Source: Oscillospiraceae bacterium (lineage in GTDB: Bacteria; Bacillota_A; Clostridia; Saccharofermentanales; Saccharofermentanaceae). Taken from it: a stretch of DNA of 7,012 bases. The translations under genes were made by a program, and so were the position numbers. The stretch is taken from positions 1-7,012 of the forward strand of contig CADCPU010000284.1 in assembly GCA_902803365.1 (NCBI GenBank), in the 5' to 3' direction. Positions 1 through 7,012 of this stretch are shown piece by piece. The notes under the pieces were generated by a model, which worked only from the letters and a program-made list of their open reading frames with translations, was not told the origin of the DNA and did no database searches. The number at the start of each line of letters is the position of its first letter. The first letter of the stretch is position 1.

Positions 1-981
1 AGATATCTGATCATTGACGGTCACACATATTTTATCGTCAATGATATAGCTGATGACGGTTATGGCAAACTGGTCAAGTATCTGGACGGTGATACCACTG
101 ATCTGGGAGAAGTGGAATATGAAGGTGTTACATACAAGATAATCAACGGAAAGGGAGTCAAGGCAAAACCTGAGCCGACAACGGCTCCTGAGCCTACGAT
201 CACTCCTATACCTGTTCCGACTGCAGCTCCTTCAGTAGGAGATTTTGTGGAACGCCTCTATCTTGTTGCACTTGATCGTGAACCTGAGAGCGAAGGTAAG
301 GATTACTGGATCTCTGAGATACAGGACGGCAGGCAGACCGGCGGCGATTGCGCGAGATTTTTCCTTATCGGTGCAGGAGAATTCCTGGCTAAGGGCCACA
401 GTGATGACGAATTTGTTGAGATCTTGTATAAGACGTTTTTCGATCGTGAATCTGAAGCAGAAGGCAAAGCATTTTGGGTATCCGCTCTCGGTAACGGCAG
501 CATGACCCGTGAACGTGTCATTGAAGGTTTTATCGACTCGAGCGAATGGTGCAATATCTGCGCTGCCTACGGCGTCAGGTCAGGTGCCGCTACGGCCAAG
601 GCAACCAGAGCATCAGCCGGTGCGACGGGATTTGCAAACCGCCTTTATACGGTGTGCCTGGGAAGAGAGGCTGAAGCTGACGGACTCAAATACTGGAGTC
701 TCGCTCTGACCAATCTTGAACAGACAGGACGTTCGGCGGCAGAAGTATTCTTTGAAAGTGAAGAGTTCCAAGGTTTAAACCTTGAGAACAGGGAGTGTGT
801 CATAAGAATGTACAGGACATTTTTTGATCGTGACCCGCAAGAGGGCGAGGTAGATTACTGGGTGGAGCAGATCGCCAGCGGAGCTCAGACGAGACAGGAT
901 GTATCGGATTTCTTCGGATCCTGTGAAGAGTTTTATTGGATATGCGTAAGTTACGGGATCGAGATGGGAGGAGTAGGCTGA
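1..981 (+). CDS. DUF4214-domain surface/secreted protein, C-terminal part (5' end outside window)
   Basis: The reading frame is open from base 1 to the TGA at 979-981, so 326 residues of a longer protein are visible. A GTG at 112 lies in frame but is unlikely to be the true start. Residues 1-56 are beta-rich with two similar pieces (DGHTYFIVND and EGVTYKIING) 35 residues apart. A Pro/Thr/Glu linker follows (residues about 56-77), then two DUF4214 modules (about 81-194 and 211-323). Each module has two roughly 50-residue units carrying an aromatic-rich helix start, an acidic [DG]R[DE] stretch, a YW/FW pair and an F-x-x-S-x-E-[FW] ending. No LPXTG, SLH domain, dockerin or C-terminal membrane helix is present. 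The facing minus-strand gene has the same tail. An extracellular location is inferred from that paralogue and the linker. The molecular role is unknown, and the missing N-terminus may define it. DUF4214 assignment is confident. Confidence 0.85.
   Translation, partial: RYLIIDGHTYFIVNDIADDGYGKLVKYLDGDTTDLGEVEYEGVTYKIINGKGVKAKPEPTTAPEPTITPIPVPTAAPSVGDFVERLYLVALDREPESEGKDYWISEIQDGRQTGGDCARFFLIGAGEFLAKGHSDDEFVEILYKTFFDRESEAEGKAFWVSALGNGSMTRERVIEGFIDSSEWCNICAAYGVRSGAATAKATRASAGATGFANRLYTVCLGREAEADGLKYWSLALTNLEQTGRSAAEVFFESEEFQGLNLENRECVIRMYRTFFDRDPQEGEVDYWVEQIASGAQTRQDVSDFFGSCEEFYWICVSYGIEMGGVG
7..150 (+). repeat. Two-copy 35-residue protein repeat in the N-terminal visible region
   Basis: Translated residues 3-15 and 38-50 align around [DE]-G-x-T-Y-x-I-[VI]-N, with the tyrosine and asparagine in matching places and a spacing of 35 residues. 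Only two copies fall in the window, and more could lie upstream. The look is of short beta-hairpin units, as in BspA-type or other surface repeats. No family could be named with confidence. Confidence 0.45.
166..231 (+). other. Pro/Thr/Glu-rich linker of the left DUF4214 protein
   Basis: The frame encodes about 22 residues with alternating Pro, Thr, Ala and Glu (for example KPEPTTAPEPTITPIPVPT). This is typical of an extended extracellular spacer between the N-terminal region and the DUF4214 tail. The equivalent linker in the convergent gene is longer and lysine-rich. Confidence 0.75.
241..582 (+). other. DUF4214 module 1 (units A1+B1) of the left protein
   Basis: The module has two half-repeats. 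Unit A starts FVERLYLVALDRE and has TGGDCARFF further on. Unit B starts FVEILYKTFFDRE and ends in an S-x-EW...C..YGVRSG tail. It corresponds in order and length to the first module of the minus-strand protein. Confidence 0.85.
631..969 (+). other. DUF4214 module 2 (units A2+B2) of the left protein
   Basis: Unit A2 starts FANRLYTVCLGREAEADG and keeps the TGRSAAEVFF helix. Unit B2 starts CVIRMYRTFFDRD and ends EEFYWICVSYGIEMGG, closing the protein. The acidic loop of B2 (DPQEGEVDYW) departs slightly from the usual EGxxYW spacing. Confidence 0.85.
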
Positions 982-1019
982 TCTTTGGCCTTTTCGAAAA
1001 CATCATAGAAAGCCAATCA

Positions 1020-1055
1020 AAAAGGCAGCCTCACGAGTAAGTGAGACTGCCTTTT
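1020..1055. terminator. Bidirectional intrinsic terminator between convergent genes
   Basis: The left arm AAAAGGCAGCCTCAC (1020-1034) pairs with GTGAGACTGCCTTTT (1041-1055) around a 6-nt loop, GAGTAA. There is one C/A mismatch in the middle. The T-run on the right serves the plus transcript and the A-run on the left serves the minus transcript. It lies 38 nt after the plus-strand stop and 23 nt after the minus-strand stop, so one hairpin can end both genes. Confidence 0.9.
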
Positions 1056-1078
1056 GTCTTATGTCTTTATGTCGGATA

Positions 1079-3436
1079 TCAGAAAGGAAGGATCCTTGCT
1101 TCGATACATTTATCGATGAACTCCGGACTTCTTGTGAATCCGAGAACGACGTCTGTTCTTGGCGTTCCGCTCTTAAGGAGCTCGGACCAGTATGCTTTTC
1201 CTTCATCGTCAGGTTCGCGGTCCATAAAAGTCTTATAGAGTCGGTCGAGATATTCGCCGTTATCAAGCTTGTAGTTTTCCATCTCCTCACTGAGGAAGAA
1301 TGCCGCGCCGACCTGCTCTCCGGTAAGGTTGAAGTTAGCAAGTTCTGCAGCCCAGAACTGTCTGCCTTCTTCGTCATAACCTCTGTTCATGGCCGTGGTA
1401 TACATTCTCTCGACAAATCTGTAGGTGAGTTCGGTAGGCTCTATCGTACACTGAGGCTTGATGTCACCGCCGGATCTGATTCCGTAGCTTGCGCATGTGT
1501 CTGCCCATTCCTGTGAATAGATGAAGCCGTTGGCTACAGTTACTCTGTCCATATTTCCGCTCTTGATCTGCTCGAGCCAGAAATCAAAGCCTTCCTCCTC
1601 AGGGTCTCTGCCGAAGAAAGTCTTGTAAAGGATCGTGACAAATTCTTCGTTGCTTGTGTTTCTTGATTCGAATTCAGGACTGAAGATGAAGCCTTGTGCT
1701 ACCTCGGCACCTGTTCGTCTGAAGCTGTAGAGTTCATCGGACCAGAACTTGAGGCCGTCTTCCTCTGCGTCTCTGTCCAATACGTATTTGTAGATCCTTT
1801 CTACGAATTCGGAGATACGGCTGTTGTCAGTTGGTGCCGTTACAGCATCAGAAGGCTTTGCCGTCGGTTTTGAAGTCGGCTTGGCAGTTGGTTTAGCAGT
1901 CGGCTTTGCTGTCGCAGAAGCTGTGGGCTTTGTGGTTGGAGTTGCCGTTGGAGCCACGGTTGGAGTAGGAGTAGGCTCTATCTTACGGGTGATGAACTTA
2001 AGTGTTTTGCCCGTGTACATAATAGTTGTTCCCGCACCGTAATAGAAGTAATAGCCGTAGTAGGAATCCAGCTTGGATGTGTTGTATGTGTTATTCAGTA
2101 AACAGCAATCTGAGATATCGATCGAAGAACCGGTGCCGGTATTGGAATAAACACAGAGCGAAGCAAGCAGATCCTGTTTGCCTAACTCGATATTGAACGG
2201 ATCACGCAGATTTATGACAAGTGAGTTTAAACTGTTTGGTTGAAACTGCGGAATGGTGACATTATCTGAGTTGGCGTTGAGAGTCAGCGATTCGATGTTC
2301 GTAAAGATCTCAAGTCCTTTGTAATCTTTTATGTTCGATATGTTGAAAGAAAGACTGTTCATATTGGTCTCAGTCGGATCGAGCTTGCCGTCTTCGTTCA
2401 GATCGCAATCGTTTGCATAAGATCTGAATGTTTCGTCAGGGAAGTTCTCTTCATTAATGTCGTAGATATTGTATTTTCCGGCTTTAAATACTACGGATGA
2501 GTCTGCAGTGATATCTCGTCTGTAGCCGCCGGATCCGGCATTGATCTGTGTGTTATCGTAGTATCCGGGATGGCTCGAAAAAGCGTACAGATCAACAAGT
2601 GCACTGAGGATAGGGTTATTTGTAAGATCGATATTCTTGATCTTGTTGTTATCGCATATAAGACAATTCAGTTCCGGGTTGTTTGACAGATCAAGTGAAC
2701 TGATCTTATTGTCGGAACAGTTAATAAGGAACAGATGCGGATTATGGCTGACATCAAGTTGGGTGATACCTGTATCAGTGCAAGTAAGGACCTGGAGCAG
2801 GGGATATCCGGAAAGATCGAGGTTTCCGGTATTTGTCTTATACATTTTCAGCCCCCTGAGGATCTTGCTGCCCGGAAGATTAAATGAACCGAAGGTAGAG
2901 TTATTCAACTCCAGATCCACCATGTTCTCATTACCGCTGAGATCAAGGGTGCTTATATTCATGTCGCTGAGATCCAGTGTGTTGAGTTTTTTGTTGGCGG
3001 AAAGATCCAACTCTTCAAGCGTCATATCAGACAGCGTGAGTTGGGTAAGTTCAGTATTCTTGCTGAGATCGATACCGGTGAGCTTGCTGTTATTTGCTCT
3101 TAGTATGGAAAGAGTCGGATTTTGGGAAGGATCGTACTTTGCTACCTCTGTTTGGCTGAAGTCAAGGTATTGAAGATTCGTTAATGTCTCGATGCCTGTC
3201 AGGTCTTTTACATCGCTATTATACAGATAGACCGTGTCGATGCGTTCTACCTCGGATGCGGTCAGAAATCCGTCTTGATCAACATCGCCGCTTTGGGAGA
3301 CGAAGGACTGAAGGACCGGATCTTTGAAGGTATCCGCGATGGATATGGACATCTGGTCTTCCGCGGCGTTGAGACTGCTGCCGAAAGCAGAGGCAATGAT
3401 CAGCGTCGCCAACAAACTGCTTGTTATCTTTTTCAT
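1079..3436 (-). CDS. Secreted EF-hand/leucine-rich-repeat protein with C-terminal tandem DUF4214 modules
   Basis: This is a complete 785-residue protein. The start is fixed by a signal peptide (residues 1 to about 25: Lys-Lys, a hydrophobic core, then SLNAA) and by AAGGGG 7 nt upstream of the ATG. An EF-hand loop at 51-62 has D51, D53, D55, G56 and E62. An SDS22-like LRR (79-100) and then nine near-perfect 21-residue LRRs (101-290, pattern LDLSxNxxLxxLxxxxNxIxx) follow. A second EF-hand loop at 345-356 introduces a less regular LRR-like section ending near 445. A Tyr/Gly patch (459-468), a Thr/Lys/Pro linker (487-536) and two DUF4214 modules (544-656, 673-785) complete it. LRRs usually bind proteins or glycans, and the EF-hands probably bind Ca2+ and stabilise the fold. 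No anchor motif is present. It has its own likely promoter after the phosphoesterase gene. The ligand is unknown. Confidence 0.92.
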   Translation of the reverse strand: MKKITSSLLATLIIASAFGSSLNAAEDQMSISIADTFKDPVLQSFVSQSGDVDQDGFLTASEVERIDTVYLYNSDVKDLTGIETLTNLQYLDFSQTEVAKYDPSQNPTLSILRANNSKLTGIDLSKNTELTQLTLSDMTLEELDLSANKKLNTLDLSDMNISTLDLSGNENMVDLELNNSTFGSFNLPGSKILRGLKMYKTNTGNLDLSGYPLLQVLTCTDTGITQLDVSHNPHLFLINCSDNKISSLDLSNNPELNCLICDNNKIKNIDLTNNPILSALVDLYAFSSHPGYYDNTQINAGSGGYRRDITADSSVVFKAGKYNIYDINEENFPDETFRSYANDCDLNEDGKLDPTETNMNSLSFNISNIKDYKGLEIFTNIESLTLNANSDNVTIPQFQPNSLNSLVINLRDPFNIELGKQDLLASLCVYSNTGTGSSIDISDCCLLNNTYNTSKLDSYYGYYFYYGAGTTIMYTGKTLKFITRKIEPTPTPTVAPTATPTTKPTASATAKPTAKPTAKPTSKPTAKPSDAVTAPTDNSRISEFVERIYKYVLDRDAEEDGLKFWSDELYSFRRTGAEVAQGFIFSPEFESRNTSNEEFVTILYKTFFGRDPEEEGFDFWLEQIKSGNMDRVTVANGFIYSQEWADTCASYGIRSGGDIKPQCTIEPTELTYRFVERMYTTAMNRGYDEEGRQFWAAELANFNLTGEQVGAAFFLSEEMENYKLDNGEYLDRLYKTFMDREPDDEGKAYWSELLKSGTPRTDVVLGFTRSPEFIDKCIEARILPF
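1082..1420 (-). other. DUF4214 module 2 of the LRR protein
   Basis: Residues 673-785 form units A2 (starting FVERMYTTAMNRG) and B2 (starting YLDRLYKTFMDRE, with EGKAYW). The protein ends directly after the B2 unit (SPEFIDKC...), so nothing such as a sorting signal follows the module. Confidence 0.85.
1469..1807 (-). other. DUF4214 module 1 of the LRR protein
   Basis: Residues 544-656 form units A1 (starting FVERIYKYVLDRD, with EEDGLKFW) and B1 (starting FVTILYKTFFGRD, with EEEGFDFW, ending SQEWADTCASYGIRSGG). The same ending occurs in module 1 of the convergent gene, which supports common descent of the tails. Confidence 0.87.
1829..1978 (-). repeat. Thr/Lys/Pro/Ala low-complexity linker
   Basis: Residues 487-536 begin PTPTPTVAPTATPTTKPT and pass into a run of four-residue KPTA/KPTS units. 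This is a flexible, positively charged extracellular spacer between the LRR head and the DUF4214 tail. The DNA is correspondingly repetitive and may vary in unit number between strains. Confidence 0.85.
2369..2404 (-). other. EF-hand loop 2 (calcium-binding type)
   Basis: Residues 345-356 read DLNEDGKLDPTE, matching the 12-residue EF-hand loop with acidic or Asn ligands at positions 1, 3, 5 and 9, Gly at 6 and Glu at 12. It follows an INEENFPDETFRSY segment of the kind that often precedes EF-hand/LRR sections in clostridial surface proteins. Confidence 0.8.
2567..3136 (-). repeat. Nine 21-residue leucine-rich repeats
   Basis: Repeat starts fall at residues 101, 122, 143, 164, 185, 206, 227, 248 and 269, an exact 21-residue period with no indels. 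The consensus is [LI]DLSxNxxLxxLxxxxNxIxx. In the last copies a cysteine occupies the same position (C219, C240, C261), as in LNCSNN-type bacterial LRRs. The ninth copy decays after its first half. Confidence 0.88.
3251..3286 (-). other. EF-hand loop 1 (calcium-binding type)
   Basis: Residues 51-62 read DVDQDGFLTASE, a canonical EF-hand loop (D1, D3, D5, G6, E12). It sits just after the mature N-terminus and directly before the first LRR. A dockerin was considered, but the two loops are about 290 residues apart rather than adjacent. Confidence 0.82.
3362..3436 (-). other. Sec signal peptide of the LRR protein
   Basis: Residues 1-25 have a short basic N-region (MKK), a hydrophobic core (LLATLIIASAFG) and a small-residue cleavage region (SLNAA before ED). 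Cleavage is expected after about residue 24 or 25. No lipobox cysteine is present, so this is a type I signal and not a lipoprotein. Confidence 0.88.
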
Positions 3437-3490: not shown

Positions 3491-3500
3491 CATCAGTCCA
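3472..3500 (-). promoter_or_regulatory. Likely promoter of the EF-hand/LRR gene
   Basis: Reading the minus strand, TGGACT (3500-3495) is followed by a 17-nt spacer and a perfect TATAAT (3477-3472). The -35 element overlaps the last codons and stop of the phosphoesterase gene. Transcription would start near 3465, giving a leader of about 30 nt with AAGGGG (3449-3444) as ribosome binding site. Confidence 0.6.
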
Positions 3501-4386
3501 ATTCGATAATGCTTATCTCGGGATCGGCGAAAAATCTCAGAGGCAATAGCACGCATCCCAGTCCTCTTGATATGAAGAATGTCATGCCTGCGCCGTCAAA
3601 TACGCCGTCGATGATCTTCCGCTTGGGGAGAAGATCCTTGCGGATCGCGAGGTTTTCGATATTGAACGGGAGCCGTATCTGACCGCCGTGAATATGTCCG
3701 GAGAGCATATGGTCGATGCCGTTAAGATCGCCTGTTTTCGCTGCCTCCAGGAGCCAGTCCGGATTGTGCGATACGAGTATGTGGCGCTTGTTCGGTTCCT
3801 TGACGGGATTGGGATACCAGACGCGGTCGTCTCGGCCCGAGTCGTTGATACCTGATATGATGTAATCGCCCATGTCGCAGAATGTTCCGCGAAGGTCCGT
3901 AAATCCGCATGAACTGATCTGTTCATCGGTAAGTCCGACGTCGTGATTTCCCGTAACTCCAAGGAAGGGAATATCAGATTCTTTGCATTTGGCAGCGATC
4001 GCCTTCATGTACTCGATACCGGTCTTGGCATCCTGCGGCTTGTTGCAGATATCGCCGCCGAAAACGACCGCATCGATGTCTGTCCTTGAGGCGATCTCGC
4101 CTATGAGATCGCAGAATCTCTCCTTTTGCATAAAGCAGTATTCGGCATGAAGATCGCTGAAGAAGATGAAGCGCTTCTTGCCGTCCCTTTTGAGGGAGGA
4201 AAGAGCGATGTCGCGTGTGTAAAAAGTCTTCAGTTTTCTTATATCGTCAGTGTCATCTTTTGAAGTCTTTGAACGGGTGAGTCTTGCCAGGCTCAGATGG
4301 AAAGAACGTGCTCCCGCTATGGCGATCACAAGGCATATTAAGGCAACCGCGAAGAGCAGGGAGAATATTATAATAAAATACTTCAT
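3493..4386 (-). CDS. Membrane-anchored calcineurin-like metallophosphoesterase (YkuE/YaeI-type, COG1408-like)
   Basis: This 297-residue protein has one N-terminal hydrophobic helix (about residues 3-25), then a basic/polar stretch and the catalytic domain. All metal-site motifs are visible: SDLH (D78, H80), GGD (D112), GNHD (N147, H148), SHNPD (H207) and GHIHGGQ (H231, H233). A two-metal active site is therefore expected to be intact, and the domain should face outward if the helix is an uncleaved signal anchor. The family hydrolyses phosphoester or pyrophosphate bonds. Known relatives include LpxG/YaeI-like enzymes acting on lipid A precursors, but a Gram-positive would lack that substrate, so the substrate is unknown. 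No twin-arginine motif precedes the helix. The ATG is preceded by AAAGGT about 10 nt upstream. No terminator separates it from the LRR gene downstream, so some read-through is possible. Confidence 0.88.
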   Translation of the reverse strand: MKYFIIIFSLLFAVALICLVIAIAGARSFHLSLARLTRSKTSKDDTDDIRKLKTFYTRDIALSSLKRDGKKRFIFFSDLHAEYCFMQKERFCDLIGEIASRTDIDAVVFGGDICNKPQDAKTGIEYMKAIAAKCKESDIPFLGVTGNHDVGLTDEQISSCGFTDLRGTFCDMGDYIISGINDSGRDDRVWYPNPVKEPNKRHILVSHNPDWLLEAAKTGDLNGIDHMLSGHIHGGQIRLPFNIENLAIRKDLLPKRKIIDGVFDGAGMTFFISRGLGCVLLPLRFFADPEISIIELD

Positions 4387-4478
4387 GATGTTGTTTACCT
4401 TTGTTTTTGTTGTGTTATAATCTTCACGTATAATTATAAATTAGTCAAATATAATATGTATCGACGGAGGATTAATAT
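4387..4478. promoter_or_regulatory. AT-rich divergent intergenic promoter region
   Basis: This 92-bp gap separates the divergent phosphoesterase and ydbC-like genes. Plus-strand signals are an extended -10, TGTTATAAT (4413-4421), and a second TATAAT (4429-4434) spaced 16 nt from TTGTTG (4407-4412). The second box is half of the palindrome TATAATTATA (4429-4438), so a TATAAT also reads leftward (4438-4433), though without a convincing -35. A leftward TTGACT (4448-4443) has no -10 at proper distance. Which boxes are used cannot be decided by eye. Confidence 0.5.
4466..4470 (+). promoter_or_regulatory. Ribosome binding site of the YdbC-like gene
   Basis: GGAGG lies 8 nt before the ATG at 4479. 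It is a strong Shine-Dalgarno sequence that fixes this start. Confidence 0.85.
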
Positions 4479-4721
4479 ATGCCTAAGACAGAGATCAAAT
4501 CCGAGATCGTTAAGAATATCGGTATCCTTGCTACCAACAAATCCGGTTGGAACAGGGAAGTAAATATCGTCAGATGGAATGAGGGTAAGGCAAAGCTCGA
4601 TATCCGTGACTGGGGCCCGGATCACGAGAAGGTAGGTAAGGGTCTTTCCCTTAATGCCGAGGAAGTTGCAGTTCTTAAGGAACTCCTTGCTGACTACGAT
4701 CCATACGAATTTGAGGAATGA
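4479..4721 (+). CDS. ydbC: YdbC-family (DUF2128/PC4-like) single-stranded DNA-binding protein
   Basis: The 80-residue product fits the usual size of this family. Hallmarks are an N-terminal beta strand (IKSEIVKNIGILA), NKSGWNREVNIVRWN at about 20-34, the signature KLDIRDWGPDHEKVGKG at about 38-54, and a C-terminal helix (LNAEEVAVLKELLADY). From the Lactococcus lactis YdbC structure work, the family folds like eukaryotic PC4 and binds single-stranded nucleic acid as a dimer. A role in DNA repair, replication or transcription is likely but not specific. It is first in a compact plus-strand set and ends 3 nt before the membrane protein start. The SD for that next gene lies inside its last codons. 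Confidence 0.87.
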   Translation: MPKTEIKSEIVKNIGILATNKSGWNREVNIVRWNEGKAKLDIRDWGPDHEKVGKGLSLNAEEVAVLKELLADYDPYEFEE

Positions 4722-4727
4722 TAATTG
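4713..4727 (+). promoter_or_regulatory. Overlapping SD and TTG start of the membrane protein gene
   Basis: GAGGA (4713-4717) lies in the last codons of the YdbC-like gene, 7 nt before TTG (4725-4727). The upstream stop TGA ends at 4721 and only TAA separates the two. This spacing supports the TTG start and translational coupling. Confidence 0.65.
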
Positions 4728-5360
4728 AGAAGCGAAGAGCGTTCGGGAATTATCGCCATAGCATTGATTCTTTTGTGGGGGACTCTGATAACAGAGCCCT
4801 TCCGTTATTTTGCGGAGATTATTTCAAACGGGATAGATAAAGTTTCTGATGCCGCAGGCATTATGCACGGAGGCAAGATCGAGTCGATCGTTATATCAGT
4901 AGCGATCGGCATCATTGCCATCATCCTTCTTAAGCTCTCTTCACTTAAGGCGGGACACGTCATAGGACCGTTCATGTCCTGTATCGCACTTGCTGTCTTT
5001 CTTATTAACTGTCTCAGATATGACGACATCAATAAGGGCAAGTTCGCTGCACTCGTGATCGCCGTTGTGCTGATATTCGTATTGGCGATAATAAGAGCTG
5101 AGAAGATCCTTATCTGGATAACGGATGCGTTCATACTTGCGCTTCCTGTTTATCTTTTGGTATCGTGGGTATTCGTACCGATCTCCCTGATCAGCGACAA
5201 AGTACACAAGTATATGTTTATATGCCGCAGGAGCTTCACGAACCTCGCGAACGCTTTTGCGGATTTTCTTACTGTCCCTGCGATCGTTTGGGGCATATTC
5301 TTTTTTATCCTGACTGCATTGCCTGTCATATATTTTATCCCCGGCAGGAGAAAGGGCTGA
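4725..5360 (+). CDS. Six-helix integral membrane protein of unknown function
   Basis: This is a 211-residue, very hydrophobic protein. Predicted membrane segments lie at about 8-26, 53-69, 78-97, 107-124, 129-151 and 184-205, with a basic tail (GRRKG). The loop at 27-52 is amphipathic and the loop at 157-183 is basic (KVHKY, CRRS), so it probably faces the cytoplasm. No catalytic or transport motif was recognised. The TTG start is chosen because it includes the first helix and has an SD at good spacing; the next in-frame ATG is at codon 47 and would lose that helix. It overlaps nothing and ends 3 nt before the ligA ATG, so it is probably translated with both neighbours. Its place between an ssDNA-binding protein and DNA ligase does not reveal a function. 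Confidence 0.8.
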   Translation: MRSEERSGIIAIALILLWGTLITEPFRYFAEIISNGIDKVSDAAGIMHGGKIESIVISVAIGIIAIILLKLSSLKAGHVIGPFMSCIALAVFLINCLRYDDINKGKFAALVIAVVLIFVLAIIRAEKILIWITDAFILALPVYLLVSWVFVPISLISDKVHKYMFICRRSFTNLANAFADFLTVPAIVWGIFFFILTALPVIYFIPGRRKG

Positions 5361-5363
5361 CAT

Positions 5364-7012
5364 ATGGACGGACAGATGTCTATCTTTGACGACAAGGCCG
5401 AGCTCAAGAACGAATACGACGAGCTCGTCAAGACTTTGAATTACCACTGCGAGCGTTACTATAACGATGACGAGCCCGAGATATCGGACGCAGAATACGA
5501 TGCGCTCAACAGAAGGCTCAAGCAGATCGAGAACGAGAATCCGGAGCTGATCTCCAAGGATTCCCCGTCGCTTCGTGTCGGCTGGAAGGCTGAGAAGGGC
5601 ATACTCGTTAAGCATAATGTTCCTATGCTGAGCCTGCAGGACGTATTCTCGAGAGAAGAAGTGGACGAGTTCGTAAACAGCACGAGAGCAGCTCTTGGCG
5701 ATCAGACAGAGTTCCTCGTTGAGACGAAGATCGACGGCCTTTCGATGGCGCTCCGCTATGAAAACGGCAAGCTCACGACTGCTGTAACAAGAGGAGACGG
5801 AATAAACGAGGGCGAAGACGTTACCATGAATGCCAAGGTCATCTCAGATGTCGTCAAGACGATGAAGGATCCGATCGAATATATCGAGATCCGCGGCGAG
5901 GTCTATATGACTCGCGAGGCCTTTGAGAAGGTAAATCAGAAGGCTGAGGAAGAGGGCAAGAAGACATTTGCCAATCCGCGTAACTGCGCGGCAGGCACAT
6001 TAAGACAGATAGATACGAGGATCACCAAGGAGCGTGATCTCTCGCTTTTCATATTTAACGTTCAGGAGAGCCGCGGCAGGACTTTTGCCACGCATCTCGA
6101 AGGATACGAATATCTCGAAAAGAACGGTGTCAAGGTCATTACGGAGCGTTTCCTGTGTAAGACCGCTGACGAAGTCTGGGAAGCTATCCAAAAGATCGGC
6201 AATATGCGCGGAGAGCTTGCATATGATATCGACGGCGCGGTCGTAAAGCTCAACAGCATCGCAGACAGGGAAAAGCTGGGAAATACCATCAAGGTTCCGA
6301 GATGGGCCGTTGCCTACAAGTATCCGCCTGAAGAAAAGGAGAGCAAGTTGATCGACATCGAAGTCGGTCTCGGAAGAACGGGAAGAGTTACGCCTGTTGC
6401 TGTTTTCGAGCCGATAACATTGTGCGGAACGACTGTTCAGAGAGCGACTCTCCATAACCAGGATTTTATAGATGAGCTGGATCTCGGTATCGGTGATACG
6501 GTCGTTGTCTATAAGTCGGGCGAGATCATCCCGAAGATCAAGTCCGTAAACAAAGCCAAGAGACCTTCTGACTGGACGAGATACCATCTGCCGGACGTAT
6601 GTCCTTCGTGCGGTCACAAGCTCTCGCGTGAAGAAAATACTGCTGACTTTAAGTGCACGAACATAAACTGTCAGGGACAGCTCAGGTTCAGGCTTATTAA
6701 CTTTGTATCCAGAGACTGTCTTGATGTTAAGGGATTCGGTGAGGAATACATATCCGATCTCGTGGAGAAGGGATACCTTCATAACATAGCCGATATCTTT
6801 GATCTTAACCTCAGAAGAGATGATCTTCTTGAAGACAAGATATTCGGACTCGAGAAGAATACGGATAAGATCCTAAAGCAGATCGAAGAAGCAAAGAGTG
6901 CGCCTGCAGCCAAAGTCCTCGCAGGACTCGGAATACCTAATGTTGGTAAGGCTACGGCTAAGGAACTCATGAGAAGCTTTAAGTCCATCGACGAGCTCGC
7001 TTCTGCGAGCGA
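5364..7012 (+). CDS. ligA: NAD+-dependent DNA ligase LigA (3' end outside window)
   Basis: The frame is open from the ATG to the right edge, giving 549 residues against about 670 for full LigA. LigA seals nicks with 5'-phosphate and 3'-OH ends in replication and repair, using NAD+. Visible parts are the Ia domain (Y27-H28, ISDAEYD at 40-46, DSPSLRVG at 66-73), the catalytic KIDG with K122 as the adenylated lysine, TRGD (142-145), IRGEV (176-180), FANPRN (202-207), DIDGAVVK (288-295) and WAVAYKYPP (314-322). These are followed by the OB fold (GRTGRVTPVAV, 337-347), a Cys4 zinc finger (C413, C416, C431, C436) and helix-hairpin-helix repeats from about 445. The rest of the HhH region and the BRCT domain should follow. 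AGGAG (5346-5350) and AAAGGG (5351-5356) precede the ATG; another ATG four codons later is less well placed. Confidence 0.97.
   Translation, partial: MDGQMSIFDDKAELKNEYDELVKTLNYHCERYYNDDEPEISDAEYDALNRRLKQIENENPELISKDSPSLRVGWKAEKGILVKHNVPMLSLQDVFSREEVDEFVNSTRAALGDQTEFLVETKIDGLSMALRYENGKLTTAVTRGDGINEGEDVTMNAKVISDVVKTMKDPIEYIEIRGEVYMTREAFEKVNQKAEEEGKKTFANPRNCAAGTLRQIDTRITKERDLSLFIFNVQESRGRTFATHLEGYEYLEKNGVKVITERFLCKTADEVWEAIQKIGNMRGELAYDIDGAVVKLNSIADREKLGNTIKVPRWAVAYKYPPEEKESKLIDIEVGLGRTGRVTPVAVFEPITLCGTTVQRATLHNQDFIDELDLGIGDTVVVYKSGEIIPKIKSVNKAKRPSDWTRYHLPDVCPSCGHKLSREENTADFKCTNINCQGQLRFRLINFVSRDCLDVKGFGEEYISDLVEKGYLHNIADIFDLNLRRDDLLEDKIFGLEKNTDKILKQIEEAKSAPAAKVLAGLGIPNVGKATAKELMRSFKSIDELASAS

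Follow-up and report, generated by a model that had tools for sequence, protein, structure and literature searches.

Two convergent genes in the window, a 7,012-nucleotide stretch of DNA from an Oscillospiraceae bacterium, encode proteins that end in the same DUF4214 tail. The question raised by this locus is what such a tail does for the proteins that carry it. The original prediction regarded it as a portable retention or assembly module for exported proteins, which may be a display system not yet described. Our results indicate that the DUF4214 tail is probably a little-studied way to hold proteins on the cell surface, since some related heads in other bacteria of the group carry known wall anchors in its place.

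Tail architecture of the two proteins

The features of the two genes, P1 and P2, are as follows:

1..981, plus strand: P1 gene, truncated at the 5′ end, 326 residues visible, stop codon at 979-981
1..168, plus strand: end of the P1 head, about 56 residues, similar to part of two L118 proteins from the relative G001
169..231, plus strand: Pro/Thr linker of P1, read from the sequence
244..411, plus strand: P1 DUF4214 unit A1
412..630, plus strand: P1 DUF4214 unit B1
631..795, plus strand: P1 DUF4214 unit A2
796..978, plus strand: P1 DUF4214 unit B2, up to the C-terminus
1030..1045, plus strand: terminator-like hairpin between the convergent P1 and P2 genes, consensus match only
1079..3436, minus strand: P2 gene, complete, 785 residues
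3365..3436, minus strand: signal-peptide-like N-terminus of P2, about 24 residues, judged by eye on the sequence
2537..3343, minus strand: leucine-rich-repeat (LRR) head of P2, internalin-J/EndoS-like, bounds approximate
1979..2536, minus strand: remainder of the P2 head, without a domain assignment of its own
1820..1978, minus strand: Pro/Thr linker of P2
1643..1807, minus strand: P2 DUF4214 unit A1
1418..1642, minus strand: P2 DUF4214 unit B1, containing Cys 648
1253..1417, minus strand: P2 DUF4214 unit A2
1082..1252, minus strand: P2 DUF4214 unit B2, up to the C-terminus, containing Cys 777

By Pfam comparison, P1 and P2 each contain four stretches of DUF4214 (PF13946). The E-values (1.7e-44 for P1 and 1.2e-52 for P2) exclude chance, and with bit scores of 150.1 and 176.3 vs. 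a curated cut-off of 23.2 both proteins belong to the DUF4214 family. The units start at residues 82, 138, 211, and 266 of P1 and at residues 544, 599, 674, and 729 of P2, and the two tails share 39% identity. The predicted arrangement, a Pro/Thr linker followed by an A-B-A-B tail on both proteins, was thereby confirmed, the two modules of the prediction being two A-B pairs. Each B unit has one near-invariant cysteine; the column of P2 Cys 648 is conserved in 54 of 54 aligned tails and that of Cys 777 in 53 of 54, and the A units of P2 are without cysteine.

Absence of an LPXTG motif, SLH, dockerin, and a C-terminal membrane helix from either protein had also been predicted, and was borne out by Pfam, motif, and hydropathy analyses. 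At E up to 1, neither protein matched the SLH or dockerin (Dockerin_1) models of Pfam; the choline-binding (PF01473, PF19127) and ChW (PF07538) families gave no match either. LPxTG is absent from both, and neither qualifies as an LPXTG-type sortase substrate. There is no membrane-like segment, the top 19-residue hydropathy being 0.77 in P1 and 0.82 in P2 past residue 60, and no lipobox was seen in P2 (the N-terminus of P1 is missing). BLAST gave no match between the two heads, a weak comparison with about 56 residues of the P1 head visible. This stub matched two L118 DUF4214 proteins of G001, at 43% (56 residues) and 40% (55 residues). The likeness of the P2 head to internalin J and EndoS is a resemblance of fold and makes no statement on virulence.

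The DUF4214 family in the nearest relative and in databases

A scan of genome contigs with the whole of P2 found no relative, and LigA was then used instead; all whole-genome counts given here come from relatives of the window's organism. The nearest of them is G001, a yak-omasum metagenome assembly whose LigA is 86% identical to that of the window, and the LigA tree pairs the two with support of 100/99. The window thus probably stems from a Saccharofermentans-like member of the Clostridia. All 150 scored units of G001, from 253 candidates, match DUF4214. Its fetched regions hold 58 DUF4214 frames with 232 units in all, exactly four units being present in 50 of them and four or more in 54; among the eight frames with another number, three are cut at contig ends and L144_4430, which has just one unit, probably represents a frame arising by chance. 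A restriction of the tail to two proteins, which would have spoken against the original prediction, does not apply to G001 with its 54 frames of at least four units.

The 54 aligned tails all match PF13946. They end at the C-terminus in 45 cases, two of which run off the contig end. The other nine blocks are placed forward, starting before residue 150 with at least 140 residues behind them; eight start by residue 81, and that of L139 lies near the middle. A hydrophobic segment near the N-terminus is present in 49 of the 50 5′-complete frames, signal peptides having been called by a hydropathy rule. Among these 50 frames, we observed no LPxTG in the last 60 residues and no further membrane-like segment.

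In databases, the P2 tail has 241 relatives, with varied heads among the 120 listed. Exactly four units occur in 225/238 database relatives, and in 277/298 proteins when the G001 frames and the window's two are included; the 238 were found with four-unit tail queries and length limits, which biases their unit number to four. Comparison of the heads of 60 proteins (E 1e-8, at least 60 residues) gave 31 groups, some heads being truncated or short. Pfam scans of nine proteins detected CAP, heparinase, transglutaminase-like, CHAP, GDSL/GH42-like, LRR, RHS, and DUF6273 heads. Many exported-type proteins with unlike heads share the DUF4214 tail, as expected of a non-covalent anchor. One tail relative, P0001, has ten DUF4214 units and a head that itself consists of diverged units; it could be an assembly protein.

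Tails were further grouped into sequence classes, which depend on a cut-off chosen by us. Of 282 tails, 236 are of the type seen in P1 and P2; 230 of these stand at the C-terminus and 6 are placed forward. Class 7 has 13 tails in each of the two positions and 1 between them, and all 9 tails of classes 3 and 8 are forward. To judge by these classes, the DUF4214 module moves between heads, but most of its C-terminal and forward versions differ in sequence. The notion of a portable retention module is well supported: one tail is found on many proteins with 31 head groups and is exchanged for SLH, choline-binding, or ChW repeats (see below). Its portability must be limited, because C-terminal and forward blocks lie mostly in different sequence classes. 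In the relative G003, two proteins (loci L252 and L272) carry six N-terminal ChW repeats, mirroring the forward DUF4214 blocks of G001.

Predicted fold of the tail

The structure model of the tail is confident (pLDDT 96.8) and is predicted to have the phycobilisome-linker fold, the same fold as PF00427. Neither P1 nor P2 matched PF00427 at E up to 1, and they are not counted as members of that family. Matches at E up to 1 were obtained in 31 of the 54 tails; three tails scored 20-22 bits vs. a cut-off of 28.7, and the best match, with E of 9.5e-7, may reach the cut-off. P0001 carries a precomputed PF00427 match. Phycobilisome linkers assemble protein discs. The DUF4214 tail differs from them in being exported and acidic. 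A weak fold match was also found to the N-terminal domain of RsaA (PDB 6t72, 6z7p), the LPS-bound part of the Caulobacter S-layer and a helical surface-anchor domain; kinship of the tail with RsaA was rejected, the match being too weak.

Exchange of the tail with SLH repeats on homologous heads

G017, a relative with LigA 71% identical to that of the window, has at least 150 SLH repeats and no DUF4214 match. Its fetched regions contain 65 SLH frames; the repeat number is three in 62, and in 59 no more than 40 residues separate the SLH repeats from the C-terminus. When the repeats were masked, 20 of 60 DUF4214 heads, that of P2 included, matched heads of 10 of the 65 SLH frames, vs. 5 of 60 that matched one of 598 other G017 frames taken as a control. 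The Fisher p-value of 4e-10 for this difference is inflated, because the control frames were mechanically called flanking frames. The head alignments cover at least 170 residues in 14 of the 20 cases and fewer than 100 in six. The longest pair, a DUF4214 protein of 2209 residues and an SLH protein of 2273 residues, aligns at 31% over 1250 residues (E 1e-127). The DUF4214 protein L134, whose tail shows two units where its contig ends, matched the SLH protein L197 at 38% over 556 residues, and the P2 head matched the same L197 at 31% over 272 residues (E 4e-32). Pfam detected three SLH stretches per protein in 4/4 partners tested. SLH anchors (PF00395) are like the DUF4214 tail in having a small fixed repeat number, a mostly C-terminal position, and homologous heads.

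Other anchors on P2-like LRR heads

A search with the P2 head also covered 11 relatives having between 0 and 3 DUF4214 matches. It gave a match in seven, in which part of the matched LRR frames was examined, and no LRR match in the remaining four. In G010 and G013, three P2-like LRR proteins tested end in choline-binding repeats. In one protein each of G005 and G011, six ChW repeats are followed by 20 residues up to the C-terminus; the G011 protein is 5′-cut and its match to the P2 head is weak (65 residues, E 3e-7). A lipoprotein-like N-terminus, judged by eye, was seen in G014 and in one LRR protein of G023. Three full-length P2-like LRR proteins (G007, G010, G023) showed no recognised anchor. 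P2-like LRR heads may do without an anchor or use unrecognised ones, and these three proteins made us slightly less confident that the tail is an anchor.

Choline-binding and ChW repeats resemble the DUF4214 tail in their C-terminal position on P2-like LRR proteins of relatives, but differ from it as separate Pfam families. In the part of the wall-binding-domain review available to us (PMC5817068), choline is given as the ligand of choline-binding repeats and none is known for ChW. ChW repeats were sampled in 258 kb of G003 and 74 kb of G005, which contained 2 and 1 ChW frames, respectively, with six repeats each and no DUF4214 in these frames. DUF4214 matches number 0 in G003, 3 in G005, and 124 in G006. 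In the LigA tree, based on one gene and unsure as to the position of L019, G003 and G005 join G006 (99/95) inside a mostly DUF4214-rich clade (88/95). This placement suggests that DUF4214 was lost in G003 and G005, with ChW in its place.

As to an additional known anchor in close relatives, which would have told against the original prediction, 2 of the 120 listed relatives of the P2 tail do match SLH, but the stretch lies inside the LRR head. Such a single weak SLH-like stretch occurs within the LRR proteins L134 (residues 429-474), L231, L232, L235, P0025, and P0045, irrespective of whether they carry a DUF4214 tail, a ChW tail, or no recognised one. We set it aside as a second anchor in P0025, P0045, and L134; it looks like a part of the head, because a like stretch is present in ChW-tailed LRR proteins and in one that lacks a recognised anchor. 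Four listed relatives (2/120 in each of two listings) match PF03793, which we take to be the PASTA domain and which might bind the wall too.

Anchor distribution across relatives and the order

Among 20 relatives, CWB2 was found in none, dockerin in five (one or two matches each), the LPXTG model in six (one to four matches each), and SLH in nine (one match each in eight of them and at least 150 in G017). Sortase is present in 22 of 23 genomes, including all 20 relatives. Contig C98 of G001 has two LPXTG-type and two sortase matches close to one another, which may represent a minor sortase system separate from the DUF4214 set.

Across the order, 188 genomes were surveyed, most of them assembled from metagenomes and with no completeness stated. 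Counting as rich those with at least 27 DUF4214 or at least 8 SLH matches, thresholds of our own choice, 28 are DUF4214-rich, 7 are SLH-rich, and none is both. Per-genome counts of 150 (29 and 35 in the order-wide runs) are to be read as at least that number. Mutual exclusion of SLH and DUF4214 was rejected as evidence, since chance gives zero overlap 32% of the time; the case rests instead on homologous heads that carry different anchors.

SLH binding is described in PMC5817068, as far as its available text goes, as requiring a wall polysaccharide pyruvylated by CsaB. A pyruvyl-transferase-family gene is present in 5 of 7 SLH-rich vs. 6 of 28 DUF4214-rich genomes (p 0.02, kinship uncorrected), a distribution compatible with, but not proof of, a different ligand for DUF4214. 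DUF4214 tails and SLH triplets differ sharply in charge, the median pI being 4.69 for 282 tails and 9.68 for 62 SLH triplets. As the tails are acidic and the triplets basic, the ligand of the tail probably differs from that of SLH.

Proposed function and alternative explanations

Judging from the exchange of anchors on homologous heads, we consider it quite likely that the tail of four DUF4214 units anchors proteins non-covalently to the cell wall. Export of a protein bearing a signal peptide would proceed through Sec, and its head would fold outside the cell. The Pro/Thr linker would then span the wall, and the acidic helical tail would dock on the wall or a surface component, filling the slot that three SLH, six ChW, or choline-binding repeats hold in relatives. 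Points against this reading are the three full-length LRR proteins with no recognised anchor, the six head matches of fewer than 100 residues, the pyruvyl-transferase-family gene in six DUF4214-rich genomes, and the fold relatives, which favor a protein partner. A broader reading is that DUF4214 tetra-tails form a separate class of wall anchors with the phycobilisome-linker fold and a non-SLH-type ligand, and that surface-protein sets of the order switch between DUF4214, SLH, ChW, and choline-binding anchors from lineage to lineage, with the heads kept and each switch accompanied by a change of wall ligand. We give this extended proposal just under an even chance.

The tail may instead serve assembly: by attaching to a protein scaffold or to the tails of other DUF4214 proteins, it would form an extracellular complex or a sheet resembling an S-layer and would make little or no direct contact with wall polymers. 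A protein partner is favored by the kinship in sequence and fold with the disc-assembling phycobilisome linkers. The near-constant number of four units, the ten units of P0001, and the acidity of the tails, ill-suited to an anionic wall polymer, point the same way. The available part of PMC11970703 likewise cites DUF4214 surface proteins of another organism that are thought to assemble into an S-layer-anchored enzyme. Yet homologous heads with SLH, choline-binding, or ChW repeats in relatives point to the same slot for the tail, and we regard assembly as its main role as unlikely. The same slot, held by cell-wall repeats in relatives, speaks against binding of a substrate or host surface, such as plant fibre or mucus glycan, by secreted enzymes and adhesins, as does the presence of one tail type on very different heads. 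Heparinase-, GDSL-, CAP-, CHAP-, and transglutaminase-like heads and the origin of relatives from rumen, omasum, and faeces would suit such a role, which nevertheless seems to us distinctly improbable. The C-terminal position of 45/54 G001 tails would agree with a role as a sorting signal that is used by a dedicated exporter and removed after export. We find this very hard to credit, given the 9/54 forward blocks with protein chain behind them and a conserved domain of 240 residues, large for a disposable signal.

The wall-anchor interpretation is well supported as a prediction of binding and is partly anticipated in print. In its accessible text, PMC12780176 lists DUF4214 as one of the domains that likely serve for surface anchoring in segmented filamentous bacteria, so that the original suggestion of a system not yet described goes too far. 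There, DUF4214 is found on multiple predicted surface proteins and common wall-binding domains are largely absent. These bacteria are a different group, and the likeness is one of description, the available text giving no unit number, fold, or exchange of DUF4214. PMC11970703, in the part available, also suggests that the DUF4214 protein it describes may be an extracellular enzyme, possibly an anchored one. The accessible portions of PMC6034559 and PMC12165300 mention DUF4214 in a peptide listing and in a correlation with type VI secretion. Our literature search found no paper on the exchange of DUF4214 with other anchors and none for the accession PF13946, and the 2018 review PMC5817068, available in part, was absent from the matches for DUF4214. 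If the anchor reading is right, it would give a function to DUF4214, a domain present in large numbers in the exported proteins of many gut Clostridia, and would suggest that sets of surface proteins can change their anchor within one bacterial order. Such swapping would bear on the joint evolution of wall polymers and surface proteins.

The ligA neighborhood

The phosphoesterase, PC4-like, small membrane protein, and LigA genes at window positions 3493-7012 adjoin in relatives too. In 19 ligA loci compared, some of them cut at contig ends, BLAST gave no match to P1 or P2, with 10/19 loci covering a good stretch of sequence upstream of the phosphoesterase gene or of the corresponding position. 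The phosphoesterase gene was present in 16/19 and the PC4-like gene in 17/19 loci, and L019 carries one short DUF4214 frame near ligA.
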